Source: Proluteimonas flavola
GTDB lineage: Bacteria; Pseudomonadota; Gammaproteobacteria; Xanthomonadales; Xanthomonadaceae
Length of the DNA stretch: 64,000 nt
Direction: 5' to 3'
Assembly: GCF_021191705.1 (NCBI RefSeq)
Contig: NZ_JAIWPU010000018.1
Coordinates: 1 to 64,000, forward strand
Shown: in pieces, positions 5,695 to 62,910 of the stretch
Position numbering within the stretch: position 1 is the stretch's first letter
Layout: each line of letters starts with the position of its first letter
Notes under the pieces: generated by a model
The model's database searches: none
What the model was told of the DNA's origin: nothing
What the model saw: the letters and a program-made list of their open reading frames with translations, nothing else
Made by a program: the position numbers and the translations under genes

Positions 5695-5757
5695 GGCGCG
5701 CTCCCGCCAATCGTTCCTTGCGCGGATCACCATGGGCGCTGCGCCCGACACCGCGGG

Positions 5758-6699: not shown

Positions 6700-6741
6700 C
6701 CACATGGTCCTTGTTGATGTTCCCGTGATCATCCGCGCGCT

Positions 6742-7692: not shown

Positions 7693-7749
7693 TGCCAGAT
7701 CACCTCGACTGTGGGCTTCCATGTCTGATGGAGTACGGTACGGCGCTTG

Positions 7750-8727: not shown

Positions 8728-8797
8728 GATCAACTCCATTCCCTTGAGGGTTGCACAACCGCACCGCGGCACCATTACCGAGGGCGGACCGTATCGA

Positions 8798-19909: not shown

Positions 19910-19970
19910 GTGTGCTCCCACATTCAATGGTCCCGCAAGAGATTCCTGTCCGTCCGCCACGGTCCAGCGC

Positions 19971-22524: not shown

Positions 22525-22549
22525 GATTCCTCGGATGTCGTCATGGAGG

Positions 22550-25500
22550 TCATTCCACGACCTCGGGGGCGGAGTGGATGACGGTGGAGATGGGCTGGCG
22601 CTCGATGAAGCCACACAGTGGCCCCGCATAGCTCTCCAGTGCTTCGCTGGTCAACAGGATGTTGTGGTGGTAAGGCACCCTGACCTCTTCCACATGGCTC
22701 GGAATGAATGCACGCATCGCGTCGTACTTGCCGGGATGGTCTGAATCCTTGGCGATCACGATCATGGTGTCGCCATGGAACGTCTTAGGATCACGGTAGT
22801 AGGACAGCCGCGTGTTGTTCTCCTGGATGGCACTCATCCGATCGATCATCATCTGCTTGAGTTCGTCGGACGCATCCTGGTAGTCGCGGTACCCGACCAG
22901 ACGCTCCTCGAGGTCGCGCCGATGGTCCGTGATCGCCTGCTCGGGCCACGGATCGTCGCCAAGCGGGGTCGGATCGATCATCACCAGGCCCGCCACGCCG
23001 ATGCCACGCTGCTGCAGTTCGGCCGCCATGGCGTGGGCTACGATCGCACCGAAGGACCATCCCAGCAGCAGGTACGGGCCCTCCGGCTGTATCCGCTGCA
23101 TCTGTTCAATGTAGTCGCTGCACATCTGCGCGATGGTCGATGGCAGTACATCGTCGTCATTGAGGCCCCGCGCCTCCAGCGCATACACGGGACGTTCCTG
23201 CGGAAGATAGCGCAGCAACGCCATGTACGGCCGGGCGAAGCCACTGCCGGGATGGATGCAGAACAGCGGGGGACGCGAACCGCTGCGCTTGAGGGCCAGC
23301 GGCCTTCCCTGCGGAGGGCGTTTGGTCATCTCGTCGATCGTCGCTGCGATGCGTTCGATCGTCTCCTCCTCGAAGACGGTCCTGATCGGCAGGCTGATGC
23401 TGAACTCTTTGTTGATGCGCGCGACCATCATCGTCGCCAGCAGCGAATCACCTCCGATATCGAAGAAACCATCGCGCACGCCCACATCGTGCATACCGAG
23501 AAGTTGCTGCCAGATCGCGACAAGTTCTGTCTCGATCGTCGTACTGGCAGCGACCGGCATGGGGTTGACGCCGCGGACATGCAGGTGTGACGTCGCCTCC
23601 CTGGAGGCAGATCTGTCCACCCATGCATCCCGCCGTCGGCGGAGGTCACCGGTACAGTGGACCAACTGCGGTGCATCGGACCACGACAGGACGTACGCAA
23701 GTGCGGCGGCCCCCTGCTCCCCCGTCATCCGGGAATCGGTCATCCGGGCCTCCGTCATGGAGGACGGCTTGCCACCGACATTCCACCCGTCCCAGTTGAT
23801 GCTCAGCCAGCGCGTATCACCGCGCGCATGGCGGGCCGCGGCGAAGGCATCCATGAACGCATTGGCCGCCGCATAGGCCGCGAAGCCAAGCCCTCCCAGC
23901 ACGGTGGACAGCGAGGACATCAGGACGCAGAAGTCCACCTGTCTGTGCCGTAGCACGCGATGCAGCACCATGGTGCCCTTGGCCTTGGCAAGGAACTGGG
24001 CACGCACACCGGATTGCGTCAATTCGGCGATGGGCATCAACGCGTTGCGCACATCGCCTGCACAGTGGATGACGCCATCGATGCGGCCAAACCGCACTTC
24101 CGCTGCCTCGAAGGCCGCATGCATTGCTGCTTCGTCGGCGACGTCGGCGCTGCAGACAAGGACCTGCGCCCCCTTTGATTCCAGTGCCAGCAGGCGCTCC
24201 AGCTTCACGACCATGGGATCGGACTTGCTGCGCTCCACGACAAGGTTTCCCCATTTCGAGCGTTCGGGCACGGTGTCGCGGATGACCAGCACGATCCTGG
24301 CGGCCATGCCCGCCAAGTGGGCGGCAATGGCATAACCCACGTTGCCGAGCCCACCCGTAATCAGATAGACGCCACCCCGCCGGAGCCGTGCCGTCAGTCC
24401 TGCCTGCGCCCTGTGCACCGGCACATGGGACTGCACCCAGCGCACCCCGCCGCGGAACGCGACGGTCCTGTCCTGGCCCCCCGCAAGAAGCTCCTGCACC
24501 AGCAATGCCATGGACGGGAGCGGGCTTCCGGCCTCGTCCAGCGGTTCCAGCCCGGTGCCGAGGTCGATGTCGGAATCGAGGTCGAGGTCGAGGTCTACAT
24601 GACGGCAATCCAGATGCGGGTATTCCTGGGGCGCAACCCTGCACAGCCCGATCATCGTGGCCTGTTCCGGAGACACCCTCTCGCGCCCGGTGACCAGGAA
24701 GGCATCGCGGGTCACGACATGGACCGGCAGCGGCTGCTCCCGCGCGTCGACAGGAAGCGCGCGGATGAGTTCAACCAGGCTCTGGTGCGCGCCCTGCATC
24801 GCGACCGCGACGGCGTCGTAGGCCTGGACGTCGTCGCCGGCACCTTGGGTACCCATGTCAAGGGCACGCAGATGGACCGCGCCCTCGATGTGCTTGTTAT
24901 CACGCCTCAAGGCTGCAACGGTCTCTGCGCAGCCCGCGAGGAGACCGTTGCTGCTGGCCTGATCGTCATCCGGCGACGCGGATGGCCGCACTGGAGGATG
25001 CAGGATCACCGCGTCCCTTCCCGCTGCGCGCAGCGCCTCGGCCAGCGCGCTGGCCGTGCCACCTGCATCGGCCACCAACAGCCATGTCCCTTGCGCCGCC
25101 TCCGGCTTTGTCCCACCTGGCCCCGCACCGGATGGCCTCCAGACGGGTGCGTGGAACCACTCTTCATGCGACCCCAGAGGCGAAACCGACGGCGTCGGTT
25201 CGGCGGCACCCTGCGCATCAAGCCAGTAACGTTGCCGCTCGAATGGATACGTGGGCAATGCGACGCGACGGCGGCTGCCGGAGGCATGACCAGCCATCCA
25301 GTCGATCCGTACGCCCAGCTCCCACAGCCGTCCGAGCGCCGCCTTGAATGCACGCCAGGCCCCAAGGTCATCGCTGCTGTCACCCAGCACGGACACTGCA
25401 TAATGCGCGCTCCCGCGCGTCAGTCGCGATGACAGTCGTGACAGCACGTGTCCGGGTCCGACCTCCAGCAGCGCACACCGCTCACCCTGTTGGACGGATC

Positions 25501-31282: not shown

Positions 31283-31284
31283 GG

Positions 31285-34200
31285 CTACCACTCCATTTCT
31301 TCGTAGAGGGGGCGCTCGCCGGCGTCGCCCGCGGCATCGGAAGGGGGCTCGGAAGGGGGGCCGGCGTGTTGGTCGATGTGCGCGGCAAGCTCGACCAGGA
31401 CCCGTCGTTCGAACACGGTCCTGAGCTGCAGCGCCCCCTGCCATCTGCGATTGACGTGCTGGACCATGCGCGTGGCCAGCAGTGAATGACCGCCAAGCCG
31501 GAAGAAATCGTCGTCCAGACCGACCGGCTCCGTCCTTTCAAGCAAGCCCTCCCACAGCGTGGCGAGCATCCGCTCGGTCTCCGTCGTCGGCGCCCGATAA
31601 GGACGCGCGAGCGGCGTGGCCAACGCGACGGGCAGCGCGGATCGATCGATTTTTCCATTCCCCGTCAGCGCGAAGCAGTCCACCACAGCCAAGCCGTCCG
31701 GCTGCATGTAGGCCGGCAGCGTGGCGCTCAACCTGTCTCGCAGCGCGAGGACAAGCGCCGGGCGCCCGGCAGGCTCCACCGCGCTGACGACAAACCCCAG
31801 CAGGCGGCGTGCATCTCCATGGCCCTGCACGGTGACGGCAGCATCGAGCACCCGGTCGTCCTGGAGCAGCTGCGCCTCCAGTTCGCCCAGCTCGATGCGG
31901 TGGCCACGGATCTTGACCTGGTCGTCCTGGCGCCCGAGATACTGCAGTCGTCCTTTGTGATCAAGCCGGACCATGTCGCCACTGCGGTAGGCGCGGTACG
32001 GCATCCCGTCCGTGGACACGTGCTGCACGAAGCGCGCATGGGTGAGCGCGTCCTGTCCCAGGTAGCCATGGCCGACGCCGTCACCGCTGATCCACAGCTC
32101 CCCGATGGCTCCCACGGGCACCGGCTGTTGCTGCGCATTGACCACATGCAGCCGCGTGTTACGGATCGGCCTGCCGATGGGGATCGACTGCATGCCATCG
32201 GCCAAGCCGTCCACGTAGTGGACCGAGCATCCCACTGCCGTCTCGGTCGGACCATACTCGTTCACATACTCGGCAAGCGGGAGTCGCTCCACCTGCCAGC
32301 GGCGAACGGTCTCGCCCCGCAGCTGCTCACCGCCAATCACCAGGCAATGGCGCCGCATGACGGGCGCCGCGCCGGCCGGGAACAGCGCGTGCAGGGCGTC
32401 GAGATGGGCCGGCGTGAGCTTGAACAGCCACTCATGCGCATTGGCGAAGAGATAGTCTGCTAACGCCTCCAGGCGCTCTGGCGTCGTTCCTGGAAGCACG
32501 ACCAGGCAGCGTCCCGTCAGCAGCGGGGTGAACAAGGTCGTCACCGTGGCATCGAACCCAAGCGGTGTGCTCATCACCGCACCGCGATGGTGAGGCTTGA
32601 GGTAGCCGACAGCGTGATCGAGATAGTTCACGACGGCGCGATGGGGCATCACGACGCCCTTGGGGGCCCCCGTGGAACCGGACGTATAGATCACGTAGGC
32701 AGGCATCTCAGGATGCCACCGCGCCTCGTCCCCGCCCTCGTCCATGCACACCGCTGACAGGTTCTCCGATGCGGGTGACTCATCGATCAGGTGGACGCCC
32801 TCCGCCCACGACGCGCAGCGGCTGGACAGCGCCTGCGTCGTCACTACCCACCCGGCGTGGCTGTCCGCGCACAGGTGCGCCAGCCTGTCCCCCGGCATGT
32901 CCAGCTCAAGCGGCAGGTAGGCCGCGCCCGCCTTGAGGATTGAGAGGACGCCGATGACCTGCGCCAGCGACGGACCGACGTGGAGCGCCACGATCTCACC
33001 AGGCCGCACCCCGCGATGATGCAATGCACGCGCATGCCGCCCCGCCAGCGCGTCAAGTTCGCCGAATGTCATCCCGCGCCGGCCATCGGTGATCGCCAGC
33101 GCGTCCGGAGTACGTCGCGCCTGCTCCTCGAACAGGGAATGCAGGCCTCGGTCGGGCAGGCGCGGCGCTACGGTGTCGTTCCATTGCGCCAGGAACTGTG
33201 CATCGCGCCTGCTGAGCATTGGGAGTGCGAGGATGGGTGTGTAGGGGGCGTCCATCGCGGCAACCAGCAGCAGCTCGAAATGCTCCGCGATGCCAGCGAC
33301 CGCCTGCGCGCTGAACAGTCCAGCGGCGTAGTGCCAAGACAGCATCAGCGCGCCGTCCTGCTCCCATGCCCCGATCTGGAGGTCGTACTTCGTCACAGGC
33401 GGCGTGTAGTCGACCACATCGATGTCCAGACCGGGCACGTCCGGCACGCCACTCTGGAGGTTGTTCAGGGTAAACAGCACCTGAAAGAGTGGGGCATGGC
33501 TGGGATCGTGCCGGACTCCCGCCACCTCGAGCATCCTGTCGAAGGACACGTCCTGGTGTGCGAAGGCGTCCAGCACGACCGCCCTGCTCCGCGCGATGAA
33601 GCTGGCGAAGGACTCTTCTGGACACAGCGTGGTGCGCAGGGGCAGCACGTTGATGAAGCAGCCCATCATCACCTCCGTGCGCTGGTCCAGGCGTCCGGCC
33701 ACGGGGGTTCCGATGACCACATCATTCTGATCGCTGTAGCGCGCCAGCACGAGTGCAAGGACGGACGCCAGCACCATGAACGGCGTCAGCCCATTGGCAT
33801 GGCAGAACGTCTGCATCTGCCGCATGGTGTCCGCATCAAGCGTACTGCGGTACTCCGCGCTGGTCGCATCGCGACGCGCTGGGCGGGGTGCATCCGCGGG
33901 AAACAACGACAGCGCGGGGACGTTGGCCAACTGCTGCCGCCAGTAGTCAAGCGACGCTTCACCACCATCCGCGTCGGCCTGCTCTTCAAGCGCCACATCG
34001 GCGTACTGCCACGGCAAAGGACGAAGCGAGCCTGGCCTGCCGTGCCGTGCTGCCGCGTAGAGGTGCGCGATGTCGCTGACAAGAACATCCATCGACCACG
34101 CATCGGCAGCAACATGGTGAACGGACAGAATCAGCACGTGCTGCATATCGCCCAACGCCACGAGGACCGCACGCAGCATGAGGTCTGTCCGCGATGCAAA

Positions 34201-40200: not shown

Positions 40201-41121
40201 CGGATCGATCCGCTTCCTGACACGAAGGGCGGCATGGTTCTGGCGCTCCGGTCGCGGGTGATCCAACGGAAGCGCGTGCACCACAGGCGCATCCGCAAGC
40301 TGCTCTCTCCAGAACGCCAGCGCCCGCGTGCGCGCGCCTCCCTGCAGCAGCCCGCGCTGCCAGCGGGCATAGTCCGCATACTGAAGCTCCAGCGGCGGCA
40401 TTGCACCGTGTGCCCCGCGCAAATGCACGCTGTAGTAATGGGCCAGTTCCGCAGACAGCACGCCAAGGGACCAGCCATCCGAAGCGATGTGATGCATGCT
40501 GATCACAATGACGTGCTCATCCGCTCCCAGTTCGATGACACGCATGCGCAGCAGTGGCCCATGCTGCAGATCGAAGGGCGCCGTTGCGTCCTGGCGGATC
40601 AGGCACTCCAATGCGTCGTCACGTGTCCCAGCGGCCACATCCCTCAACGACGTGAAAGCAACGGGTGCATGGGCCTGCACCTCCACCCGCTGGATGAACA
40701 CCCCGTCGACATCCACCAAGTGCGTGCGCAGGATGTCGTGTCGCGCGACGATGCTGTCGATTGCCGCCTGCAATGCGGCGATATCCAAGGGCCCCGTAAC
40801 ATGGTAAGCACCTTGGATGTTGAACTGCGCACTGTGGCTGTCCATGCGATTGACGAGCAATAGTTGCTGTTGCCCGTAAGACAGCGGTGCATCACCGGGT
40901 GGCATCCCGGGCCCGATGCGCGGGAGTGTCCACGCGCCTGCATCGTGATGCTGCCGCTGGCGCAGGTGGTCGATGATGGCGGCCTTGTTGGCCAGGATGT
41001 CCGTGCGCAGCGCATCGGGTACGTCCCTGCCCGCCGCGGTCCGGTAGGACAAGCCGTCGCCCTTCAGGAACAGGACGATGTCCTCCTGCAGCGCCCTTGC
41101 AATGATTGCCTGTGCCGCCAT
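31285..41121 (-). CDS. Three-module NRPS: docking-C-A-T-C-A(Gly)-T-C-A(Asn)-T
   Basis: The 3278-aa middle synthetase starts with a TubC-type docking domain (residues 1-55) and so should accept the chain from the upstream NRPS. Modules: C (HHIASDGW near 212), A (core near 685), T (near 1077); C (HHIAVDG near 1282), A (near 1762), T (near 2144); C (HHVAADAW near 2337), A (near 2817), T (near 3214). Specificity residues by alignment to GrsA are D-A-L-H-V-G-L-L-V (unassigned), D-I-L-Q-M-G-L-I-W (one change from the glycine pattern) and D-A-T-K-V-G-E-V-G (asparagine). The third C domain has Ala where HHxxxDG has Gly. There are no epimerisation domains and no TE. Its ATG shares one base with the TGA of the upstream gene (TGATG), so translation is coupled. 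Confidence 0.92.
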   Translation of the reverse strand: MAAQAIIARALQEDIVLFLKGDGLSYRTAAGRDVPDALRTDILANKAAIIDHLRQRQHHDAGAWTLPRIGPGMPPGDAPLSYGQQQLLLVNRMDSHSAQFNIQGAYHVTGPLDIAALQAAIDSIVARHDILRTHLVDVDGVFIQRVEVQAHAPVAFTSLRDVAAGTRDDALECLIRQDATAPFDLQHGPLLRMRVIELGADEHVIVISMHHIASDGWSLGVLSAELAHYYSVHLRGAHGAMPPLELQYADYARWQRGLLQGGARTRALAFWREQLADAPVVHALPLDHPRPERQNHAALRVRKRIDPDRLARLHAMCREHGATLFMLLQSALSVLLHRFGGERDVVMGTPMSGRTDTGLEPLIGLFINTVVLRDRHDAADTFRSRLLQARQRAPMLHEYQYLPFDVLVEELNPPRSSAYGPLFQVWFVLQNNARIQMQLPGCTVREESRWQVDAAKHDINLYAVEDDAGLSLDWVVRISLFEPETVDNLAQQYDRLLDAIVEAPDTLISEHALFDATPALAALDGGADAAPPPLLDQFLQQVQQRPDATAVLSEAGAASYRDIDAASSTLCSRLRTVPGTHVGLCLSHGADIVVAIWACIKAGRVYVPLNPEYPAERLQGIVEDAGVACVLVNDATELAAGQFGQCALMRVDAPTGPRGSDMATVAFMQPHPTAPAYVLYTSGSTGRPKGVMQCHGHVAYYVQAYVSRLRISPADRLLQLASFSHDAAVLDMFAALTTGACLHLLDPKRAGAEGVHAVLRGGVSIYHSTPTVFRFLFADGHVAEGEGLRAVVFGGEAVDAPTLALATRCLPGSCEVVNLYGSSEATLVMMHARRVAQGLTPCQRLGGVVAGTRLWLEAEGRAVARLYQPGEIVVESTALATGYLGQPTLSSERFGSRGVSTRFYRTGDMAYLRPDGTLRLLGRRDNQFKLHGQRIEAGEIEAVLAECAGVQACAVIPQRDALGHVEQIVGFVTAGAHGQAWPAQERAIRRRLMTLLPPYMVPARLQLLAALPRTASGKLDRQALVALADAAQAAAAASVDAGPRTPTQTRVLAIWSAVLGRSDLRCDQGFFAAGGHSLLAMRLSAALGEAFGCRLQLADLFVHQTIAEQAALIDAGGHGELGAPLVAGAYPATQPDIQQDPQQDIWPLSYPQQRLYFLSDIGAGAAHYNLRVGLTLEGALDVGALRQALDCIVDRHQILRTRYVERAGEAWQQVMPAMPMALRFHDLAALERDARDAALHALMDDQAHQCFDLVAGDVMAATLVRCRSDMHVVLLVAHHIAVDGVSMRILAREFAALYQAARTGGDACLPGLAFQYGPFAEWQRAALEQQDYADHVGYWMRALAGVPHVHGLATDRARPARQDHAGASHREWLHGALLSSLRALAARQGCTLFVVVKALLSLVLARHGSHDDVVIGVPAAGRSQPGSEALIGFFADTLVFRHQLDWSLDFEALLDLHMAQAAEVFAHQHVPFEMLVDMQGVDRSPACHPLIQVFLSYQDAEQDQLVMQDLQVDVLPWSNDQVKFDLELVVQPSGDALALEWRYATSLFDPATIERMAQGWLLLAQAVVDSVHAPLRSFDVLTGADRQRLACWNTTDRVYASHPLHEQIAAQATRTPTATAVVDSAGPLDYRALMARADVLARCLRQRGVKPGALVGVHLPRTADLVIALVGILRAGAAYVPLDPSYPHGRLAHVAQDSGVRCVVTARSLASAAAALATGIEPVLLDALDTADAAGAAKTTSCGADAGPDDLAYVMYTSGSTGQPKGVMVEHRQLINFAAAMQDCLPLQDGTWLALTACSFDISILELLCPLAYGHSIVLGDHARRADQDSAFPALIERHAVTHLQCTPSLLHMYMELPDFCRALARIKVLMVGGEGFPPALVGEIRRHTRARLFNLYGPTETTIWSSCAELQDDGVVSIGRPVANTRFLVVNAHLRAVPIGVQGELLIGGAGVARGYLGRDDLTAERFIRLPDGTTAYRTGDLVRWTNDGVLLSSGRCDRQVKIRGHRVEPAEVEQQLRALHEVRHAAVTVWATDAGEQVLVAYLVPLSRIADPSAWRQACRDALAGVLAPFMMPAAFVILDQLPLTPNGKVDHQALPRADATDYSDVSRVEPLGETESRLLRIWRNLLGHDGIGATSDFFAVGGHSLLATRLVSAIRAEWGVALTLRDVFECHTIREQARRVERATVAVASPAVPHARPARVPASAAQRRLWLAAQGGDAADAYNIVVGLRLTGDLDKRALQMAVDGVVERHEVLRTVFSLDDDGLWQHVRPCGAVPMDEQDATALDPAQQGDVLDRLLREEASAGFASRTDLMLRAVLVALGDMQHVLILSVHHVAADAWSMDVLVSDIAHLYAAARHGRPGSLRPLPWQYADVALEEQADADGGEASLDYWRQQLANVPALSLFPADAPRPARRDATSAEYRSTLDADTMRQMQTFCHANGLTPFMVLASVLALVLARYSDQNDVVIGTPVAGRLDQRTEVMMGCFINVLPLRTTLCPEESFASFIARSRAVVLDAFAHQDVSFDRMLEVAGVRHDPSHAPLFQVLFTLNNLQSGVPDVPGLDIDVVDYTPPVTKYDLQIGAWEQDGALMLSWHYAAGLFSAQAVAGIAEHFELLLVAAMDAPYTPILALPMLSRRDAQFLAQWNDTVAPRLPDRGLHSLFEEQARRTPDALAITDGRRGMTFGELDALAGRHARALHHRGVRPGEIVALHVGPSLAQVIGVLSILKAGAAYLPLELDMPGDRLAHLCADSHAGWVVTTQALSSRCASWAEGVHLIDESPASENLSAVCMDEGGDEARWHPEMPAYVIYTSGSTGAPKGVVMPHRAVVNYLDHAVGYLKPHHRGAVMSTPLGFDATVTTLFTPLLTGRCLVVLPGTTPERLEALADYLFANAHEWLFKLTPAHLDALHALFPAGAAPVMRRHCLVIGGEQLRGETVRRWQVERLPLAEYVNEYGPTETAVGCSVHYVDGLADGMQSIPIGRPIRNTRLHVVNAQQQPVPVGAIGELWISGDGVGHGYLGQDALTHARFVQHVSTDGMPYRAYRSGDMVRLDHKGRLQYLGRQDDQVKIRGHRIELGELEAQLLQDDRVLDAAVTVQGHGDARRLLGFVVSAVEPAGRPALVLALRDRLSATLPAYMQPDGLAVVDCFALTGNGKIDRSALPVALATPLARPYRAPTTETERMLATLWEGLLERTEPVGLDDDFFRLGGHSLLATRMVQHVNRRWQGALQLRTVFERRVLVELAAHIDQHAGPPSEPPSDAAGDAGERPLYEEMEW

Positions 41122-44100
41122 CAGAAGTCCCCCTCCTCCACCTGCACCCCCGATGCCGCCAATCTGCGTTCAAGTGCCTCCACGCGCTGCAGTTCGGTGC
41201 GCGCGTCGACCAGTGCGGCAATCCCGGAAATGGTCGGACTCAGGAAGAACTCCCTGACGCCCAGCGCGGCGCCATCGAGGCCGAACTCGTGGGTCACCCT
41301 GCTCGTGAGTCGAGTTGCCAGCAGCGAATGTCCACCGATCTGGAAGAAGTCGTCCTCCATTCCGATCCTGTCGTGCCCCAGCAGCTCGCGCCAGAGTGCA
41401 AGCAGACGCGCCTCGGTCTGCGTTGACGGCACACGCCTGCCTTGTGGGCGGTGCCACCCCTGCGCGTGCACCGCCTCGCGTTCAAGCAGGCGACGGTCGA
41501 TCTTTCCGTTTGGCGTCAGCGGCAACACATCGCGCGGCACGAGTGCGGCCGGGACCATGAACGCGGGAAGCGCGCGAACGAGGGCGGCATGCACGGCGGC
41601 CAGCTGGGCATCCGTCTCCGTCTGCGCCTGTCCGTCCACACTCCGATGCAGCACAACGAACGCCACCAGAGCGGCGTCGCCGAACGCACCTTCACGTGCC
41701 ACGGTGACTGCGCCGGCTACGCCACCGACGCCGGCAATGATCGCGTCGATCTCTGCGGTCGCGACCCGGAAACCGCGGATCTTGACCTGGCCATCAGTAC
41801 GCCCGACATAGTGGAACACACCGTCGGGCGTGATCCTGGCAAGATCACCGGTCGCGTACAGCATGCCCTCCCCCGGAAGCACGCCGGTGAGAAAACTCTG
41901 CCTTGTCAGGTCATCACGATCGATGTAGCCATCACTGACCCCGATGCCGCCCAGATAGAGATCCCCCACCACGCCAAACGGCTGGAGCTTCAGCGTGCTG
42001 CTCAACACATAGGCCGTGCAGTTCTGGATCGGACGCCCAATCGGCAAAGTGACATTGTGCGAGGCGGCTGCATCAGCGTCATATATGGCAGCGATCCCGA
42101 TGTCGGTGCATTCGCTTGGACCGTACATATTCACGATCGTCGCGTGACAGGCCCCACTGTGCAGCCACGGGTGGAGGTCGGCCAGCCGGACGGCCTCCCC
42201 GCCCATCGCCAGGATGCGTAGTGATGCCAGCGCAGGCCAACGATGGTCGGATGCCACCAAAACACCGGCCGCGCTCGGTGCGCAGTTGATCAGCGTGACC
42301 TTATGCGCGCTCACCAGCGACGCAATCGCTTCAGGATCGAACATGTCATCCGGAATGACAATCGTGCCGCCGGACAGCAACGGTGCGAAGACATTCTTCT
42401 GGGTCATGTCGAATCCAATCGACCCCACCAGCAGGCAGCGGTCCGACGGCGACAACCCGTGGTCGTGGATGTACCAGTGCAGGAGGTTCAGGAAGCTGTC
42501 CTGCCTGACCATCACACCCTTCGGCTGGCCCGTCGATCCAGACGTGTACACCACGTAGGCCAGAGAGCCGGCGGGGGAGAGGACACCCGCGTCGACATGC
42601 GCCGGTTCGCCATGCGCTCCGGCGTGGCTCCTTGCGACGTTGCCCGCCTCGTCATGGCAGAACACGGCTGCCGGCAGCGCCACCCCACTCAGCTGCTCCA
42701 GCGACTGCGCATCGCAGAGCAGCGCGGAGGCCCGAGCGTCTGCCAGGATGAACGCAACCCGTTCGGCCGGATACGCCAGATCCAGTGGCAGGTACGGCGC
42801 ACCCGCCTTCATCACAGCGAGCATCGCCACGACCAGATCGACGCCACGCCGCATATGGATGGCCATCGGCCGGCGCATGTCCAACTGAGCCGATGACAGC
42901 ACGGTGCACAACCGCGTCGACCTGGCATCCAGCTCGGCGTAGTCCACCACGCGATCACCATCGATGATCGCCGGTGCGTGGCGATCGCCAACGACGATGC
43001 GTGCAAAGCGATCAAGGATGGAGCTACCCATCATGACGCCCGGCGCAAACGTCCTGGCGGGCGCCATCAGCATGCGCCGTTCCTCCACGGTAACGATCTC
43101 AAGATCGCGGATACCCGTCGCCGCGTCTTCCGAGAGGCCGTGGAGCAGGTGCAGGAACGAACCGGCCATGCGGCGGACTGTCGCCTCCTGGAATACCGCC
43201 GTATCGAAGGTCCAGCGGCATCGCAGCCCGTCGTCGCTCTCGGAGACCATGAGCTCCAGGTCGAACCTGGCCTGGCACTCGCCGTCCTCCTCCAGCACGC
43301 GCAGTGCCATGCCGTCGACGACGGCGTGCCGCAGCTTCCGTGCCGGATCGTCCTGCACCGAGAACAGGATCTGCGCCAGCGGCCGACTGCCGCCCACGCG
43401 TTCCTTCGATACCGCCTCGACCACCGCATCGAACGGGACATGCTGGTGCTCGAATGCCTCGGTGAACTCTCTGCGCGCCTGCTCCAGCAACGCAACGAAC
43501 GGACGGTTGACAGTACAGTCGGTCCGCAGCACCACGGTGTTGGCGAAGAAGCCAATCAGCGCATCGAGGTCCGGCTGGTGGCGGTTTGCCACGGGCGTTG
43601 CGATGAGGACATCCCCGCTTTCGCTCCATCTGCCCACCAGCACCGCAAAGGCCGCGTGCAGCAACACGAACAGGGACGTGTCATGCGCGCGCGCAAGACC
43701 ACGCATGCGATCGGCCAAGGCGCCAGGAACGTGGGTGGTACAGGCCATGCCACGCGGCGACCGTTGCACATCCTCTGCCCCGTCACGCGGCAACGAATGC
43801 CGCGGCGGAGCCCCGGCAAGACGTCGCGTCCAGAACTCCAGACCCGCCTCCATGCCGCCGGCGTCGGCCCATCGTCGCTGCGATTCTGCGAACTGACGAT
43901 ACTGCAGGGGCAAGGGCGGAAGAGCGTCGCGCCCCACCGTAGACGGCGTTGCGTAGATCCGGGCGAAATCGGCAATGAGCCTGTCCACGGACCAGCCGTC
44001 AGCGGCGATGTGGTGCATCGTCAGGAACAGGGCCGCATGCGCATCATCCTGCAGCAGGGTCGCACGGATCAGCGGACCGGTGCGCAGATCAAACGGTGTG

Positions 44101-47100
44101 GTCTGCTCTCTGGTGCGCAGGCGATGCACATCGGCGTCCCAGGTGCCGCCTTTCCCCTGCAGGACCTGCAGTTGGAAAACGGCATCGATCACCCACTGCA
44201 ACGGCACGCCATCGTCATCCACGCCGAACACCGTGCGCAGGCTTTCATGGCGTTGCAGGACCTCGTCGAGGGCCATCTGGATGCGCGGGGGGTCGATGTC
44301 ACCTTCCAGATGCAGTGTAACTGCCATGTTGTAGTGACAGGAGCCCCCTTCCATCTGGTCGATGAACCATAGGCGCTGCTGTTCGAAGGACAGGCGCACC
44401 GGTGTCCCCGGCAGATTCTTCGCATGCATCGCGGTGGGGGCCATCGGCCTCGTCCCCGCGCCCATCCCCGGTACCGCCTCGGCACCGTCGCCACGTGCCT
44501 GCGCGTCGATCAGCGCTGCGAGCGTCGCGATCGTTCCCGTCTGGAAGAACTGCCGATAGCCCAGAGACACGCCGAAGCGCTCCCGGACTCCGGCGAGTAC
44601 GTCAGCCACCTGCAGTGAGTGGCCTCCCGCCGAGAAGAACCCGTTATCGGGATCCTCCCTCGCCCCATGCAGCACTCCGGCCCAGATGTCCTGTACGCCC
44701 TGTTCGGTCGTCGTCAGGGCGCGATGCGTTTGCGGCGCCGACGATGCGGGGCCGAGCGCCTTGAGGCGCCTGCTGTCGATCTTGCCACTCGGCGTGAGCG
44801 GAAGTGCATCCACCACGTACGCGAGGGACGGCACCATGAACCGCGGAAGCCTCGATTCCAGTGCATGACGCAGCGCCACCGGACAGACAGTCCCCGACGA
44901 CGCTGGCACGATGCAGGCCGCGAGCGTGGGCTCTTCGGCGGCGCCATCATGCACGAACACGACCACGTCGCGCACCTCCGCGCAGGCCCGGATCGCACGC
45001 TCGACCTCGGCACATTCGATGCGATGTCCTCGCACCTTGACCTGGCCATCCGCGCGTCCTTCGAACAGCATGTCGCCGTCTGGAAGGCACCTGACGAGGT
45101 CTCCCGTACGGTACAGCTGGAGAGGTGTCCCCGCCCCCGTCATGACCTCGACGAACGCCGTTTCAGTCTCCTCGGGACGATTCAGATACCCGTTGGCGAG
45201 CCCCACGCCTGAGATGCAGAGCTCCCCCTTGGCGCCAAGCTCCACCGGCCGAAGCCACCGGTCAAGGACATTCACGTGCAACCCGCGCATTCCCTGGCCG
45301 ATAGACACCCTCGCATAGGTAGTGTTGATACCGCCGATCGACGCACATACCGTGGTTTCGCTCGGCCCGTATGCGTTGATGAAGCGGCAATGCCTGGACC
45401 ACCGCGTGGCTTCGTCCAGTGCGATGGGCTCTCCGGCGGAGATGGCATGGGTCAGCGTGGGCAACACGTGCGGTTGCAGCCGCTTGAGCACCGTCGGCGG
45501 CAGTGTCACATGCGTAACGGCATGGTCGTTGATCCAATCCGAAAGCGCCTGCGCGTCCGGCGCGACGCCCTCCGCTACGAGCACCAGTTCTGCGCCGGAT
45601 ATCAGGGCGGTACTCCATTCCGATACCGACGCGTCGAAGCTGAAGGTGGAGAACTGAAGCACGCGTGCCCGGGCGTCGATCGAGAACGCCGCACACTGTG
45701 CGCGTGCCAGATTGGTCAGGCCGCGGTGCGCGATCCTTGCCCCCTTCGGGCGACCGGTGGAGCCGGACGTGTAGACGATGTAGGCATCGTCCAAGGGCGT
45801 TGGGTCAGCCATCGCACGCGGCACATCTTCCGGTGCCTGCTCAGTCAGCGTCGCGCGCACTCCAGGATCATCCAGGACAATCAGCGGCGCATGCAGCATG
45901 TCGGGCTCGTCCATGCTGGTGGTCATGCCATGGACCAGGATACAGGCAGGCCCGGCATCGTCGTAGATTTGCTGGCGCCTGGCCGACGGATAGGCCGGAT
46001 CAACAGCCAGGTACGTACAACCTGCCTTGAGCACGGCAAGCGTTGCCACGATCAGGTCAACGCCACGCGGCAGGCAAAGGGCGACCCTGCGACCTGGCCC
46101 GAGGCCACGCGCAAGGATCAACCTGGCAAGCTGGTTGGCAGCCTGGTTCAGCGCTCCGTAGTGGATGACCTCGCGTCCCATCCGCAGCGCAACCGCATCC
46201 GGGTGGGACTGCGCCACGCGCTCGAACAGCCGGTGCACACATATGTCCTGATCGGGCAGCGGCACGTCGCTGCCAGGCAGGTTCCATGCCGCTCGTGGCC
46301 CGATGACGCCGATACGCTCTCCAGGATCGACCAGAACACTGTCAAGCAACGTAACAAACGCGTCGGCCATCGCCCGGATCGAATGGCGCTCGAACAGGCC
46401 CGGCTGGCCGATCCAGCACAGATGCCACGCGGCATCGCCCCGGCGGACGAGGAGCTCCAAGTCGAAGCGTGTCGCAACGGTGGCCGGATCCCGTCGCCGG
46501 AGCGCAAGCTTGTCCGTCTCCACGGCTGCGGGCAGATCATCCTGGAACGCGAACATCACCTGGAACACCGGATGCACGCCATGCTCGGGCCGACGCTGCA
46601 GCGCATCGACAACCTGGTCGAAGGGCAGCTCCTGATGCTCAAGTGCCTGGGCGACCTGCTGCTGGAATGCACCGAGCTGGTCGGCGAAGCTCTCCTTCGG
46701 ATCGAAGCGGTGCCGGTAAGCCACCAGATTGACCAGCATCCCCACCACGCCATCGAGACCAGGCCCGCCACGCCCGTGGACTGGACTGCCCACCACCACC
46801 TCGTCCTCGTGGCTCCATCGGCACAGCAACAGCGCGAACACGCACTGCATCAGGCTGAACTCCGTCACCGCCAGGCGGCGCGCCACGGCCTGGACACGCT
46901 GTACCTGCTCGGACGTGAGCATCGATTCAACCGGCTCCACCTTCCATGGACCGCCTTGGCGACGACTGCCGTCGAACGCGAGCCCATGCTGTGGCGGTGC
47001 ACCGTCCAGATGCGCACGCCAGTAGCGTTCCTGTCCTGCCCATTGGCCCCGTTCCAGGCCCTGCCGTTGCCAGTCCGCGACATCCCGGAATTGCCGCACG

Positions 47101-50100
47101 GGGTCTGGCAGGACAGCGTGCTCGCCGCGTGCCAGAGCCGCATGCAGATGAAGGAACTCGGAGAACAGGACGCGCACCGACGCGCCATCGGCAGCGATAT
47201 GATGCACGTTCAACGCCAGCAGCGCCTCTGCATCCGCCTGCTGGATCAACAGCGCCCGGAATGGCAGATCGCGCTCCAGATCGAACGGCGCGTCCGCATG
47301 GGCGCACAGCGCCTGCTCTATCCGCTGTGCCCGCTCCGCGGGTGCCCACTGCATGGCGTCCACGATGTCCAGGCACCACTGCACGGGCTCCACGACATCC
47401 AGCAGCAACGCTTCACCGGCCTGCCTCACACGCGTATGCAGGCTTTCATGGCGCAGCACAAGCAGCTTCAAGGCGTGCTCGACCCGCGTGGGCGCGATAT
47501 CGCCGGTGACGGCATACACCACCGGCATGTTGTACCGTCCCGTCCCCGGCTCCGCGACCTGCTGGTACCAGAGCCTGTTCTGGCCAGCAGACAGCCTCAC
47601 GGTGGGTGCATGCGTCCGTGGAATCGACGCTGGTGCATCGTCCTGTTGCGGGGCACTGGACACGCACGCTGCAAACTCGGCCAAGCCCGGACAGCGGAAG
47701 AGGTCACCGATGGTCACCTGCCGCCCGGTCATCGCACGGACCCGGGCGACCAGCGTCGTTGCGACCACGGAATCCCCACCACGTTCAAAGAAGCTGCTCT
47801 CGCGCACGATCGTGGCCGGTTCCACACCGAGCATCGATGCCCATAGTGCCGCGATCCCGCGCTCCAGGTCCGATGCGGGCGCCGTGGCCCCACCACGCAT
47901 GCCATCCGCCCGGGGCAACCGCGCCTTGTCCAGCTTTCCGTTGGTGCCGATAGGAATCGCATCCACCGGGGTGAGCTGCGCGGGCACCATGTACTCGGGA
48001 AGCGCGAGTATCAACTGTGCACTTATCTGCGCCAGTTGAACCGACTCCTGCAGGCAGACGTACGCGATCAACCGGCCCGCACGCTGATCGTCGCCGGGCT
48101 GGTGCAGGACGGCGGCATCCCGCACTCCCTCGATGCCGCACAGCGCTGCGCGGATGTCGCCAAGCTCGATACGATACCCGCGCAGCTTGATCTGGTCATC
48201 ATTGCGTCCGAGGTAGCGAAAACACCCTCCTCCCTGCCCCGTAACGATGTCCCCCGTGCGATACAGCCGCGCTTCCGGCAGCGCCGGAGCGGACACGAAC
48301 TGCCGGCCGTTCAGATCCGGGCGATTGACATACTCCAACGCCAATCCTGTCCCTGCAATCGCCAGCTCACCGGGCATCCCTGGCGGCACCAGCCCCTGCT
48401 GCGTGTCGAGCACATAGTGCCTGTAGCCAGGCAGCTGTGCGCCGATGGTGACGCATCCGCGCGACGCGTGTTCAAGCTCGACGCGGCTGACCAGTGAATA
48501 GACCGTCGCCTCGGTCGGACCGTACCCGTTCCAGAGCACGACGCCGGACTCCAGCAAGCATGTCGCCAGATCAGGCGGCAAGGGTTCGCCAGCGCTGACC
48601 ACGCACAGCCCCGTCTCCGGCACCCAACCCGCCGTCATCAGCTGTTTCAGACGCGAGGGAGTCGCCTGCACGAGGCTCAACCCGGCATCATTGAGAAAGC
48701 TCGCCAGTTGGAAGGGATCGTCCCTCTGCCCGGCCACGGGAATCACGCAGGTGTGGCCCAGACACAGGCACGCCAACCACTCGACCACGGAGATATCAAA
48801 TGCAGGACTGGACGCAAACAACCAGCGCCCACCCGGCACGGACTGGATGCGCGTCGCGAACCCACCCAGCAGGTTCGCCAGCGCTCCCCACGACACAACG
48901 ACACCCTTTGGCATCCCCGTCGAGCCAGAGGTATACAGCACGTACAGGGGATCATCGTGCACGCGCTCGACCACTGGAACGCTGCCCGCACCGCTCTGCC
49001 AAGCCATCAGCGCACCCGCCCTCGCGATAGGCTTTGCCAACAGCATGCTATCGCCCACGGGCGATCGGTCCCCAACGATGAGCAGGCGCGGCTCGCTGTC
49101 ATCCAGAACAGGCTGGATGCGCGCCGCCGGCATGCGCGGATCGATGGGCACATACACGGCACCAAGGCGCATGATCGCGAGCAGGATGACCACTAGCTCC
49201 GGTGCCGGGGGCAGCAGCACTGCGACCCGGTCCCCCTCCACCACGCCATGGCCTTGGCGAAGCGCGGCCGCCGAGGCGATCACGCGGGCCTGGAGGCCGG
49301 CACCATCCAGGCGTTCATCCCCGCATTCCAGCACGATGCGACCGGATCCTTCGACATACTGGCGTTGCAGGTGTGCATGGAGATCAAACTCCACCGCGGT
49401 GGAGGCGTCGCCGTGCACTGCCTCGGCGAGCAGTTGTTCACGTTCCTCGGGTGTCACGCACTCTAGCCGGCCAAGCGGAATCTCCACATCGTCGCTGAGC
49501 TGATCCAGTAGATGAAAGACCCGCTGGATGATGGGCCCGATCTGCGCTTCCGGGATGACATCGAGATTGTGATCGAACAACAGCACGCTGGATTCCTCAT
49601 CCGCTCCCTCCCAGTACGTCACCAGCAGCGGATGCTGCTCGTGGCCATGGGGGCAGTAGACCAATGGAGCGGCGGCGCCATTGATCATGGGAGCCGCGCC
49701 GACACGCAGGTAGCTGAAGGCAAAGTCGAAGGGACGGCTCGTGGATCGCGGGTTGGCTGGATGCGTGGTGATCGTCGATGCCGGATACCGACGGTGGCGA
49801 TGCACCTGCCGCTGCGTCCTGAGAACCTCTTTGATCAATGCCGCCAGGCTGTCCTGGGTAATGATCCCCACACGCAGCGGCAGCATCTGCACGAACAGGG
49901 CGATGCTGTTGCGCTCGCGCTCCGTGGCCCGGCCATGAACCGGCGAGCCCACGACAACGGAAGGCGACCGATGTGTCCGTGCAAAATAGACTGCCAGAAG
50001 CGCCATCACCACATGGTGCGGTTCAGCATCCACTCGCCGCGCAATGCGGTGCAGCTGCGCCAAGCGAGCATCGGTGAGCGGCACACGCACTCGTCCGCTG

Positions 50101-50753
50101 CGGCCAGCCCGTGTTGACGCCGGAACGGACGCGCCAGGGAAGAGACTGTCATTGAAGCCGCGCACCTGGGCCTCCCACCACGCCGCATCCGTCCTGCAGC
50201 GCTCGCTGGAGGCGTACTGTGTCTCCCGCTCCAACAGCGCCAGGTGCGTCATGGCCGGATATGCTTGCAACCAGCGCCCCGAGGGTTCCTCGTAGAAGCG
50301 GGCCAATGCTGCCCCCCAATTCAGGAAGCCCGCGCCATCCAGTAACACGTGGTGGCCCATGCCGACGTAGAAGTGCCGATCGTGACGAAGGCGGAGCAGC
50401 GCCGCGCGATAGAGCGATGTGTCATCGAAGCGGAAGGCCGTCGAGAACACTACTTCGATCCACGCTGCAGCCGCGGCATCCGGATCGCGCTGCCCGGACA
50501 GGTCGACGACTTCCAGCGGTGGATGCCCCTCCACGAGGGTTGCCGCGTAGCCGCCGGATGCGTCCACGCTGATGCGCATGGAAAACGTGTCGAAGGTCTC
50601 GACAAGACGCGCGTGGGCCAGACGGATCCGGTCAACGTCGCAGCGGCCCAGCTCAATATAGCCGCCGACGTTGTAGAAGGGACTTCCGTCGTTTACATCA
50701 TGATGGCGACAAATGGCTTCCTGCGCCGATGTCAGTGGCATCCTTTGCTGCAT
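41121..50753 (-). CDS. Three-module NRPS, initiating: C-A-T-C-A(aromatic)-T-C-A-T
   Basis: The 3210-aa first synthetase of the side-chain line begins directly with a condensation domain (HHVLLDGAG near 136), as in synthetases primed with an acyl group. Then A (core near 608), T (near 992), C (HHIAADGA near 1184), A (near 1666), T (near 2046), C (HHIAADGW near 2249), A (near 2741), T (near 3143). Specificity residues are D-I-V-Q-V-A-G-V-Y (unassigned); D-A-S-T-I-A-A-V-C (the GrsA Phe pattern with Trp239 changed to Ser, so Phe/Tyr-like); and D-M-K-N-A-G-M-D-I (unassigned). ATG 50753 is preceded by GGGAG seven bases away; the frame extends to 50831 with weaker GTG starts. It lies 168 bp downstream of the phosphopantetheinyl transferase gene, the largest gap in this series, so an extra promoter there is possible. 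Confidence 0.9.
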   Translation of the reverse strand: MQQRMPLTSAQEAICRHHDVNDGSPFYNVGGYIELGRCDVDRIRLAHARLVETFDTFSMRISVDASGGYAATLVEGHPPLEVVDLSGQRDPDAAAAAWIEVVFSTAFRFDDTSLYRAALLRLRHDRHFYVGMGHHVLLDGAGFLNWGAALARFYEEPSGRWLQAYPAMTHLALLERETQYASSERCRTDAAWWEAQVRGFNDSLFPGASVPASTRAGRSGRVRVPLTDARLAQLHRIARRVDAEPHHVVMALLAVYFARTHRSPSVVVGSPVHGRATERERNSIALFVQMLPLRVGIITQDSLAALIKEVLRTQRQVHRHRRYPASTITTHPANPRSTSRPFDFAFSYLRVGAAPMINGAAAPLVYCPHGHEQHPLLVTYWEGADEESSVLLFDHNLDVIPEAQIGPIIQRVFHLLDQLSDDVEIPLGRLECVTPEEREQLLAEAVHGDASTAVEFDLHAHLQRQYVEGSGRIVLECGDERLDGAGLQARVIASAAALRQGHGVVEGDRVAVLLPPAPELVVILLAIMRLGAVYVPIDPRMPAARIQPVLDDSEPRLLIVGDRSPVGDSMLLAKPIARAGALMAWQSGAGSVPVVERVHDDPLYVLYTSGSTGMPKGVVVSWGALANLLGGFATRIQSVPGGRWLFASSPAFDISVVEWLACLCLGHTCVIPVAGQRDDPFQLASFLNDAGLSLVQATPSRLKQLMTAGWVPETGLCVVSAGEPLPPDLATCLLESGVVLWNGYGPTEATVYSLVSRVELEHASRGCVTIGAQLPGYRHYVLDTQQGLVPPGMPGELAIAGTGLALEYVNRPDLNGRQFVSAPALPEARLYRTGDIVTGQGGGCFRYLGRNDDQIKLRGYRIELGDIRAALCGIEGVRDAAVLHQPGDDQRAGRLIAYVCLQESVQLAQISAQLILALPEYMVPAQLTPVDAIPIGTNGKLDKARLPRADGMRGGATAPASDLERGIAALWASMLGVEPATIVRESSFFERGGDSVVATTLVARVRAMTGRQVTIGDLFRCPGLAEFAACVSSAPQQDDAPASIPRTHAPTVRLSAGQNRLWYQQVAEPGTGRYNMPVVYAVTGDIAPTRVEHALKLLVLRHESLHTRVRQAGEALLLDVVEPVQWCLDIVDAMQWAPAERAQRIEQALCAHADAPFDLERDLPFRALLIQQADAEALLALNVHHIAADGASVRVLFSEFLHLHAALARGEHAVLPDPVRQFRDVADWQRQGLERGQWAGQERYWRAHLDGAPPQHGLAFDGSRRQGGPWKVEPVESMLTSEQVQRVQAVARRLAVTEFSLMQCVFALLLCRWSHEDEVVVGSPVHGRGGPGLDGVVGMLVNLVAYRHRFDPKESFADQLGAFQQQVAQALEHQELPFDQVVDALQRRPEHGVHPVFQVMFAFQDDLPAAVETDKLALRRRDPATVATRFDLELLVRRGDAAWHLCWIGQPGLFERHSIRAMADAFVTLLDSVLVDPGERIGVIGPRAAWNLPGSDVPLPDQDICVHRLFERVAQSHPDAVALRMGREVIHYGALNQAANQLARLILARGLGPGRRVALCLPRGVDLIVATLAVLKAGCTYLAVDPAYPSARRQQIYDDAGPACILVHGMTTSMDEPDMLHAPLIVLDDPGVRATLTEQAPEDVPRAMADPTPLDDAYIVYTSGSTGRPKGARIAHRGLTNLARAQCAAFSIDARARVLQFSTFSFDASVSEWSTALISGAELVLVAEGVAPDAQALSDWINDHAVTHVTLPPTVLKRLQPHVLPTLTHAISAGEPIALDEATRWSRHCRFINAYGPSETTVCASIGGINTTYARVSIGQGMRGLHVNVLDRWLRPVELGAKGELCISGVGLANGYLNRPEETETAFVEVMTGAGTPLQLYRTGDLVRCLPDGDMLFEGRADGQVKVRGHRIECAEVERAIRACAEVRDVVVFVHDGAAEEPTLAACIVPASSGTVCPVALRHALESRLPRFMVPSLAYVVDALPLTPSGKIDSRRLKALGPASSAPQTHRALTTTEQGVQDIWAGVLHGAREDPDNGFFSAGGHSLQVADVLAGVRERFGVSLGYRQFFQTGTIATLAALIDAQARGDGAEAVPGMGAGTRPMAPTAMHAKNLPGTPVRLSFEQQRLWFIDQMEGGSCHYNMAVTLHLEGDIDPPRIQMALDEVLQRHESLRTVFGVDDDGVPLQWVIDAVFQLQVLQGKGGTWDADVHRLRTREQTTPFDLRTGPLIRATLLQDDAHAALFLTMHHIAADGWSVDRLIADFARIYATPSTVGRDALPPLPLQYRQFAESQRRWADAGGMEAGLEFWTRRLAGAPPRHSLPRDGAEDVQRSPRGMACTTHVPGALADRMRGLARAHDTSLFVLLHAAFAVLVGRWSESGDVLIATPVANRHQPDLDALIGFFANTVVLRTDCTVNRPFVALLEQARREFTEAFEHQHVPFDAVVEAVSKERVGGSRPLAQILFSVQDDPARKLRHAVVDGMALRVLEEDGECQARFDLELMVSESDDGLRCRWTFDTAVFQEATVRRMAGSFLHLLHGLSEDAATGIRDLEIVTVEERRMLMAPARTFAPGVMMGSSILDRFARIVVGDRHAPAIIDGDRVVDYAELDARSTRLCTVLSSAQLDMRRPMAIHMRRGVDLVVAMLAVMKAGAPYLPLDLAYPAERVAFILADARASALLCDAQSLEQLSGVALPAAVFCHDEAGNVARSHAGAHGEPAHVDAGVLSPAGSLAYVVYTSGSTGQPKGVMVRQDSFLNLLHWYIHDHGLSPSDRCLLVGSIGFDMTQKNVFAPLLSGGTIVIPDDMFDPEAIASLVSAHKVTLINCAPSAAGVLVASDHRWPALASLRILAMGGEAVRLADLHPWLHSGACHATIVNMYGPSECTDIGIAAIYDADAAASHNVTLPIGRPIQNCTAYVLSSTLKLQPFGVVGDLYLGGIGVSDGYIDRDDLTRQSFLTGVLPGEGMLYATGDLARITPDGVFHYVGRTDGQVKIRGFRVATAEIDAIIAGVGGVAGAVTVAREGAFGDAALVAFVVLHRSVDGQAQTETDAQLAAVHAALVRALPAFMVPAALVPRDVLPLTPNGKIDRRLLEREAVHAQGWHRPQGRRVPSTQTEARLLALWRELLGHDRIGMEDDFFQIGGHSLLATRLTSRVTHEFGLDGAALGVREFFLSPTISGIAALVDARTELQRVEALERRLAASGVQVEEGDF

Positions 50754-50921
50754 CTGCACGCTCCCTACCCTGCACCATCCGCTGAATACATCCCGCATGT
50801 CGCGCGGGCGTCCTGATCCATCGCACACCACTCCCTGTGACGCCGTACTGCCAAGCGGAGCCCTGCATCACGCACACCGTCGCGCAGGCATGTACGCGAC
50901 CCGCCGCACCGCGCGCGGCGC

Positions 50922-51704
50922 TCACCAGACACAACTGCTCACGACTGTGCTGGCATCAATCCGGGCAACGTTCACCGTGCACTCCACTCCGCCGCGCCAG
51001 CGCTCAGACAGTGTTTCGTCGATGACAAAGCCCAGGACGTCCATGCGCTCTCCTGCCCACCCTCTCCATCGGAGCGCCGTGAAGTCGATGAAGCGCCCGA
51101 CAGAGGGATACACCGCCTTGAAAAAACTTTCTTTCGCGGAGAACACAGCCGTCATCAGCATGTCGCTTGGCCAGCGTCTGCTGGTGCACGGAGCAAGCAA
51201 CGCCATCTCCGCAGGTCCCAGTGCCGCCACGGCGACGGCCTCCAGGGCATCCGCCGGGATCCTGGTCTCCACGTCCACGCCCACGCCGCTGTGGCGCGCC
51301 CGCGGTGCGGCAATGGACACGGCATACCGAGCGTTGTGGGAAATGCTGCCAACGACGCCCTCGGGCCAGACAGGCTCGCGTGAACGCCCCATGGCGACCT
51401 CATGCGGCGCCGGTAGACCCATGGCCCGCATGGCGGCCCGCGCCGCCAAGCGGCCGTGGAAGAACTCGGCCTGCCGCTTGTTCACGCTCCTCACGACGTC
51501 GTCTGGCATGGACATGCGCGCCGCTGCGAACGACTCCGTGCGGAATGAAGCTTCATCGAACTCGATGGCGACCATGGGGGGGACGCAGGGCCACGGAGAC
51601 GCGCGCCATGCGCGCAGGAACGAGGCGTCCTCCGCCGGCGCGACCCGGTCCAGCCGCGTCCGCTTGATACCATCACTGAAAACAGTCTGCACTTCCATTG
51701 CCAT
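50922..51704 (-). CDS. Sfp/EntD-type 4'-phosphopantetheinyl transferase
   Basis: This 260-aa enzyme transfers phosphopantetheine from CoA onto carrier-domain serines, activating the ACV synthetase and the NRPS-PKS proteins here. Visible are VGSISHNARYAVSIA, the metal-binding GVGVDVETRI, and FSAKESFFKAVYP with the K-E-x-x-x-K signature. The length and N-terminal PPMVAIEFDEASF region fit the EntD-like proteobacterial group. ATG 51704 has AAGGAGATCAC immediately upstream and is clearly better than the ORF-maximal start at 51752. It is the first gene of the minus-strand series and faces the divergent thioesterase gene. Transcription probably starts in the 295-bp region between them. Confidence 0.92.
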   Translation of the reverse strand: MAMEVQTVFSDGIKRTRLDRVAPAEDASFLRAWRASPWPCVPPMVAIEFDEASFRTESFAAARMSMPDDVVRSVNKRQAEFFHGRLAARAAMRAMGLPAPHEVAMGRSREPVWPEGVVGSISHNARYAVSIAAPRARHSGVGVDVETRIPADALEAVAVAALGPAEMALLAPCTSRRWPSDMLMTAVFSAKESFFKAVYPSVGRFIDFTALRWRGWAGERMDVLGFVIDETLSERWRGGVECTVNVARIDASTVVSSCVW

Positions 51705-52752: not shown

Positions 52753-52759
52753 ATCGCTG

Positions 52760-62838: not shown

Positions 62839-62910
62839 CCGTGCTGACGCAGTGGCGTCAGGGAGACCCCGCCGACAGCCGCATGACACACCTCTGACAT
62901 GCAGGACCCG

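Follow-up and report, generated by a model that had tools for sequence, protein, structure and literature searches.

A seven-module peptide line joined to a cephem core in Proluteimonas flavola suggests a cephabacin-type cluster whose peptide-making half was exchanged

The window that we analysed is a stretch of 64,000 nucleotides, bases 1–64000 of an 82,463-base contig in the 4.22 Mb genome of Proluteimonas flavola (103 contigs). The cephem genes are located at 4477–20053 and are followed by two permease genes. They are given below with their identities to the corresponding genes of two relatives from the same family, G238 and G240.

4477–5751, minus strand: cefD-like PLP epimerase (Aminotran_5; 57%/55% to the genes at the same place in G238/G240)
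5758–6732, minus strand: ring oxygenase 1, cefE/cefF type (2OG-FeII_Oxy; 74%/70% to G238/G240)
6742–7722, minus strand: ring oxygenase 2, cefE/cefF type (2OG-FeII_Oxy; 68%/70% to G238/G240)
7750–8850, minus strand: isopenicillin N synthase (IPNS), pcbC (70%/69% to G238/G240)
8798–20053, minus strand: ACV synthetase, pcbAB (three A domains, three condensation-family domains and a TE; 58% to both relatives)
19971–21206, minus strand: MacB/FtsX-type permease (67%/69%, same position in G238/G240)
21208–22629, minus strand: MacB/FtsX-type permease (71%/71%, same position in G238/G240)

A true IPNS was found in three of 395 genomes of the family (E < 1e-150), namely the window's own, G238 (70%) and G240 (69%), and the next best match to the query reached 33% (E 4e-33). 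At E 1e-70 the window's own genome was the only one with a match among 398 genomes of the order and 369 of the class, samples that evidently do not contain G238 and G240, while in the genus of G238 one of 20 genomes, G238 itself, carries the gene. An IPNS search of genome contigs returned two loci, and plasmids gave no match at E 1e-30. Outside the family, a contig of Pseudoalteromonas sp. B95 carries a cephem-type set with an ACV synthetase, an IPNS (55%), two ring oxygenases and a thioesterase-like stretch. Its CmcI gene lies about 3 kb or less from the oxygenases, and the stretches examined gave no match to CmcJ at E 1e-10. The metagenome-assembled genome RBC072 has an IPNS homologue (49%) on a contig that ends about 0.5 kb past the gene; in the 11.5 kb examined, neither an ACV synthetase nor a ring oxygenase was matched at E 1e-10.

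In the window pcbAB, pcbC, cefE/cefF and cefD lie in one cluster, and by its family the cefD-like epimerase would convert isopenicillin N to penicillin N. The core shares its gene set and order with the cephabacin cluster of Lysobacter lactamgenus: ACV synthetase, IPNS, two 2OG oxygenases and the epimerase match the order pcbABC-cefEFD-bla given for that organism in a passage of PMC4495716. The β-lactamase of G238 has no match on the 82 kb contig of the window. Next to the cluster, at contig positions 64073–66106, lie genes for an HlyD-type adaptor and an ABC ATPase that may, together with the two FtsX/MacB permeases, make up a full exporter; neither has a match at E 1e-8 in the examined stretches of G238 or G240. 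A protein with a Mu-type transposase C-terminal domain is encoded near the cluster edge (contig 73678–75447), possibly a trace of mobility.

Upstream of the permeases, the minus strand carries the peptide line (22550–50831), which consists of seven C-A-T modules distributed 3+3+1 over three proteins and followed by KS-AT-KR-ACP-TE, and the gene of a phosphopantetheinyl transferase.

41121–50831, minus strand: first assembly protein, starter C-A-T + C-A-T + C-A-T, read as X-(Phe/Tyr)-X (Pfam and motif maps, codes)
31285–41121, minus strand: second assembly protein, TubC-type dock followed by three C-A-T modules, read as X-Gly-Asn (Pfam and motif maps, codes)
22550–31285, minus strand: third assembly protein, TubC-type dock-C-A(Asn)-T-KS-AT-KR-ACP-TE (Pfam and motif maps, codes)
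50922–51752, minus strand: 4'-phosphopantetheinyl transferase (Pfam 4PPT_N and ACPS above cut-off)

Eleven genes, the first for the phosphopantetheinyl transferase (51752) and the last cefD (4477), share one orientation, with all gaps at most 90 bases or overlaps. The joining of the line to the cephem genes, which the initial annotation had proposed, is supported by the common strand, these short gaps and a core layout repeated in two relatives. The seven modules and their order, also claimed there, agree with our domain and motif maps, and the malonate unit with a KR at the end of the line is borne out by the KS-AT-KR motifs; as in cephabacin clusters, the NRPS line ends in a malonate PKS module with a TE. 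Pfam counts three, three and one condensation-family domains in the first, second and third proteins, which therefore have no room for an epimerisation domain. The whole genome has 11 condensation-family domains, and ten of them are on this contig (seven in the peptide line, three in the ACV synthetase). The TubC_N dock of the third protein scores 43.0 bits, above the Pfam cut-off of 26, and that of the second protein, at 25.0 bits, lies just under it.

The three giant ORFs are uninterrupted. A motif scan found A3 and A10 in all seven A domains, the carrier serine is present in all seven T domains and in the ACP of the PKS module, and the KS, AT (HAFH), KR and TE motifs were all found in the third protein; we take HAFH to be a malonyl signature. 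The HHxxxDG motif is altered in two of the seven C domains, to HHVAADA in the second protein and NHIITDG in the third, and both versions retain the second His and the Asp.

The specificity codes, taken from an alignment of the A domains, are DIVQVAGVYK (A1), DASTIAAVCK (A2), DMKNAGMDIK (A3), DALHVGLLVK (A4) and DILQMGLIWK (A5), while A6 and A7 share the identical code DATKVGEVGK. By published code tables, A2 presumably selects Phe/Tyr, A5 Gly, and A6 and A7 Asn. The A4 code resembles a hydroxyphenylglycine code; we take this as a likeness and keep A4 as X. The same procedure gave EPRNLVEFVK, DHESDIGITK and DFESLAAVYK for the A domains of the ACV synthetase, which we take to be the codes for Aad, Cys and Val, and this control supports the reading of the line. 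The coded peptide contains Phe/Tyr, Gly, Asn and Asn, and three X positions (A1, A3 and A4) that could include other residues. The Gly, the two Asn and the aromatic residue read in the initial annotation are thus supported by the published meanings of the codes, and the four A domains with a reading gave neither Ala nor Arg, with A1, A3 and A4 staying at X. None of the seven codes equals the Ala-type code of the CpbK-like protein of G238. The altered C-domain motifs HHVAADA and NHIITDG coincide with the two Asn modules.

Cephabacin of L. lactamgenus is made by an NRPS line of four modules, CpbK (one module) and CpbI (three modules plus PKS), which ends in a PKS-TE, carries Ala/Arg in its peptide and is accompanied by an ABC exporter. 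In comparison, the window has seven modules in three assembly proteins, codes for Gly, Asn, Asn and an aromatic residue, and an acylase gene. The CpbK plus CpbI arrangement is seen in G238, where the gene order is ACP-TE, ligase, CmcJ (reverse), M28 peptidase, a CpbK-like one-module NRPS (K), exporter, a CpbI-like three-module NRPS-PKS-TE (I), two permeases, ACV synthetase, IPNS, two oxygenases, cefD and β-lactamase; the window has its three proteins instead. The codes of the G238 line presumably read Ala, Ser-like, Ser-like and basic. In its CpbI-like protein the first two A domains share the same code and the same segments, and two C domains are nearly identical, which reflects either a recent internal duplication or an assembly effect. 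The G240 assembly is 75% complete in about 250 contigs: contig C122 holds A(Asn)-T-PKS-TE, permeases, ACV synthetase, IPNS, oxygenases, cefD, CmcJ and CmcI, and contig C190 holds M28, the CpbK-like gene, the exporter and the start of a CpbI-like gene.

Between the window and G238 the core (57–74%), the permeases (67–71%), CmcJ (71%), the ligase (65%), the ACP-TE (54%) and the PKS-TE domains (58–71%) are alike; the CpbK/CpbI-like line, the M28 peptidase and the β-lactamase of G238 set it apart. Each domain of the third protein was compared to its best match in the G238 and G240 proteins, and the identities change abruptly within this one protein. The KS (58/57%), AT (58/58%), KR (71/70%), ACP (62/57%) and TE (69/64%) lie at 57–71%, with the AT-KR linker at 34/34%, compared to 33–43% for the best C, A or T match: 37/43% for A, 43/40% for T, and 33% to G238 for C, which has no match in G240, whose contig starts in A. 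The best C and A matches in G238 fall in modules other than the last, and the C and A domains show 32–43% identity to the window's own other modules, so that even the best match is only at the level of its own paralogous modules. G238 and G240, on the other hand, resemble each other in the peptide half (M28 64%, K 70%, exporter 72%, I 65–68%), and this line has no close counterpart on the window contig. The same holds for the K protein of G238 and the NRPS part of its I protein; the CpbK-like K protein of the relatives matches NRPS modules there at 31%, M28 has no match at E 1e-8 on the contig, and the exporters of the window and G238 are 34% identical. This step from 33–43% to 57–71% points to a cephabacin-type cluster in which the peptide half is another, longer one, and from the sequence comparison we infer that this half was probably exchanged just before the KS, at the T–KS junction. 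The initial view that the predicted side chain is unlike cephabacins fits the peptide half, but the core and the PKS-TE half resemble cephabacin-like clusters.

The features that bear on the start of the peptide and on its export lie at the upstream end of the line and beyond it.

49428–50753, minus strand: starter-type condensation domain (acyl donor) of the first protein (PDB matches, C-domain tree)
51952–52752, plus strand: stand-alone thioesterase, type II (PF00975, 137 bits; codon-position GC)
52760–54136, minus strand: ATP-grasp-like protein (weak CP_ATPgrasp_2 match, 20.3 bits, under the cut-off of 32)
54133–55899, minus strand: cyclic-peptide/pyoverdine-type ABC exporter (TIGR01194, 370 bits, cut-off 286)
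55896–58370, minus strand: Ntn-hydrolase-fold acylase (PF01804, 709 bits; PDB matches to D-succinylase, penicillin G and cephalosporin acylases and PvdQ)
58520–59800, minus strand: SAM methyltransferase-like protein (CheR, 34.8 bits over 55 residues)

An ORF at 52095–52763 on the minus strand was rejected as a gene on the basis of codon-position GC and the thioesterase match on the opposite strand. The ATP-grasp-like protein has no PDB match better than E 0.5, and neither it nor the methyltransferase-like protein has a match at E 1e-8 in the examined stretches of G238 and G240. Because the exporter, acylase and ATP-grasp genes lie beyond the opposite-strand thioesterase gene, they probably form a separate transcription unit.

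The seven best PDB matches of the first C domain are RzmA (three), ObiF1, EntF and CDA I (two), with weak scores that lie close together (68.6 bits for RzmA vs. 54.3 for Txo2). For an internal C domain used as a control, Txo2/Txo1 came first, and RzmA, ObiF1, EntF and CDA I were absent from 26 matches at E 1e-30. The C domains of ObiF1 and EntF are initiating domains. Parts of PMC7804268 describe those of RzmA and CdaPS1 likewise as initiating and name the structure 7C1H as RzmA. We built a tree of 18 C domains, of which 15 were chosen by their motif and three served as references (RzmA, ObiF1 and EntF); it leaves out the other C domains of the G238 I protein and all of G240. The first C domain pairs with the C domain of the CpbK-like protein of G238 (98/92), within a group that contains RzmA, ObiF1 and EntF (100/97); seven of the 15 inner branches are open, and the long sequence ACVS_h3212 is placed with little certainty. 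For the K domain of G238 itself the RzmA starter C domain is the first PDB match, but Txo2 and Txo1 are mixed into its list. Grouping by sequence thus suggests that the first module is acylated. At the gate position, occupied by Arg148 in RzmA, the domain carries Phe, and under the gate-residue rule given in part of PMC7804268 a Phe instead of Arg favours a short acyl chain.

The exporter belongs to the PvdE/SyrD family of pyoverdine-type cycles, and those of G238 and G240 also exceed the TIGR01194 cut-off. Its gene overlaps that of the acylase by 4 bases. The acylase carries a hydrophobic segment N-terminally, and its β-chain is predicted to start at Ser252; it scores 94.6 bits against the PvdQ model, with a cut-off of 950, and its best PDB relative is D-succinylase. 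The nearest exporter-acylase pair is on G240 contig C184 (exporter 50%, acylase 45%), where an acyl-AMP-ligase-like gene, an NRPS piece, the acylase and the exporter stand together in what is likely a separate lipopeptide cluster. According to part of a review (PMC6206403), pyoverdine is acylated, exported most likely by PvdE and deacylated by PvdQ, and part of PMC10587159 describes how glidonins lose their acyl group to a PvdQ-like enzyme whose gene is distant from the glidonin cluster. The starter C domain, exporter and acylase together suggest N-acylation, export and deacylation as in pyoverdine, with which the window shares a presumably acylated start, the exporter family and an Ntn-fold acylase (compared with the pathway outlined in sections of PMC6206403). 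The two differ in that the cap would here sit on a β-lactam conjugate and that by cut-off the acylase does not qualify as a PvdQ orthologue.

At the far end of the window, three genes may be concerned with the 7α position.

59961–61049, plus strand: CmcJ-family oxygenase, 7α position by family (NF041278, 218.6 bits, cut-off 80)
61444–62838, plus strand: PaaK-like acyl-adenylating ligase (family matches under cut-offs)
62899–63918, plus strand: stand-alone ACP-TE, paralogue of the PKS tail (aligned over its full length with the PKS ACP-TE tail)

7-Formamidocephalosporins with peptide side chains are represented by the Flavobacterium SQ 28,502 series and the chitinovorins. The biosynthesis of the 7α-formylamino group was not defined as of 2018, according to part of a review of that year (PMC6097109). 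CmcJ and the ligase each occur in three of 395 family genomes (E ≤ 1e-30), the same three that carry IPNS, in samples drawn by one rule and with CmcJ and ligase results that do not list every genome. This co-occurrence makes them candidates for the 7α-formamido step. No ligase match was found in the Pseudoalteromonas and metagenome-assembled genomes that carry IPNS; in plasmids the ligase has 12 matching records, all below 60% identity (10 listed at 26–31%), eight of the 12 from Rhizobium. In the G238 CmcJ match two stops at codons 8 and 9 lie ahead of a 305-residue ORF, and the gene is therefore not taken as broken. The CmcJ-family oxygenase is common to the window and the cephamycin pair CmcI/CmcJ, but CmcI (PF04989) has no match in the window's whole genome, nor in G238; 7α-methoxylation by CmcI is accordingly unlikely in this genome. 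CmcI was found in G240 and the Pseudoalteromonas genome. G240 carries the ligase, CmcJ and CmcI, which makes it harder to divide methoxy from formamido clusters cleanly; its ligase is on contig C214, with no other relative of the queried window genes, and no ACP-TE was found in the contigs examined of this 75% complete genome. The carrier serine of the ACP-TE is retained in G238 and lost in the window, which speaks against loading on that carrier.

On balance we favour a cephabacin-type cluster with an exchanged peptide-making half and an ester-linked, acyl-capped product. The core would make deacetylcephalosporin C. Assembly of the peptide would begin with N-acylation of residue 1 by the starter C domain of the first protein; the seven NRPS modules would build acyl-X-(Phe/Tyr)-X-X-Gly-Asn-Asn, and the PKS module would add and reduce one malonate to give a 4-amino-3-hydroxy acid as the end unit. 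The terminal TE would then esterify the 3'-hydroxymethyl group of the cephem with the chain, a link for which the cephabacin precedent and the conserved PKS-TE tail argue. The PvdE-like exporter would carry the product out in its acylated form, and the acylase, which is probably anchored in the membrane, would remove the cap in the periplasm. More tentatively, and as a doubtful possibility, CmcJ, the PaaK-like ligase and the stand-alone ACP-TE may form a 7α-formamido cassette, in which CmcJ would open C7, the ligase would activate a small donor of an acyl group, and the TE paralogue, a copy of the PKS tail that accepts the cephem, would deliver this group to the cephem nucleus; combined with the acyl-cap cycle, the product would be an acyl-capped pro-antibiotic unmasked outside the cytoplasm.

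Could the adjoining genes instead make two products, a deacetylcephalosporin-type cephem and an independent (lipo)peptide that the PKS-TE frees as an acid or lactone? A peptide half that has no relationship to the one in G238 and G240 and looks like an import from a lipopeptide cluster would fit this, as would the lipopeptide-derived look of the exporter-acylase pair. We nevertheless consider it unlikely, because three genomes retain the PKS-TE tail together with the cephem core although the NRPS part varies, and because the line is co-directional with pcbAB to cefD. That no peptide ester is made at all, the cluster being degenerate or silent, is very improbable: the stand-alone ACP-TE lacks its carrier serine and two C-domain motifs are altered, but the giant ORFs are open and the A, T, KS, AT, KR, ACP and TE motifs are present.

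The ester could also be formed without an acyl-cap cycle, a short acyl group staying on the product and the acylase serving in self-protection or in cleavage of the aminoadipyl side chain. The Phe at the starter-C gate position and the D-succinylase and cephalosporin acylases among the PDB relatives of the acylase are compatible with such a scheme, which we regard as rather improbable given that the acylase gene overlaps that of a PvdE/SyrD-type exporter by a few bases and that G240 has the same pairing next to an acyl-AMP-ligase-like gene and part of an NRPS. In G238 and G240, moreover, an M28 peptidase gene, with a hydrophobic N-terminus in G238, lies directly before K and the exporter, which also argues against it. 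The initial annotation was right in outline and had missed the starter C domain, the exporter-acylase pair and the set of CmcJ, ligase and ACP-TE.

Cephem-peptide esters are a small class of bacterial β-lactams. The core of this cluster is ordinary; the combination is new. The literature searched holds no account of this cluster or of a seven-residue cephem-peptide, a weak negative with the primary cephabacin papers outside its reach. If an exchange at the T–KS junction that kept the PKS-TE tail did occur, the peptide and cephem halves would be interchangeable in nature, and new conjugates might be made at this junction. Through their occurrence in the same three genomes as IPNS, CmcJ and the ligase offer a concrete, testable gene set for 7α-formamido formation.
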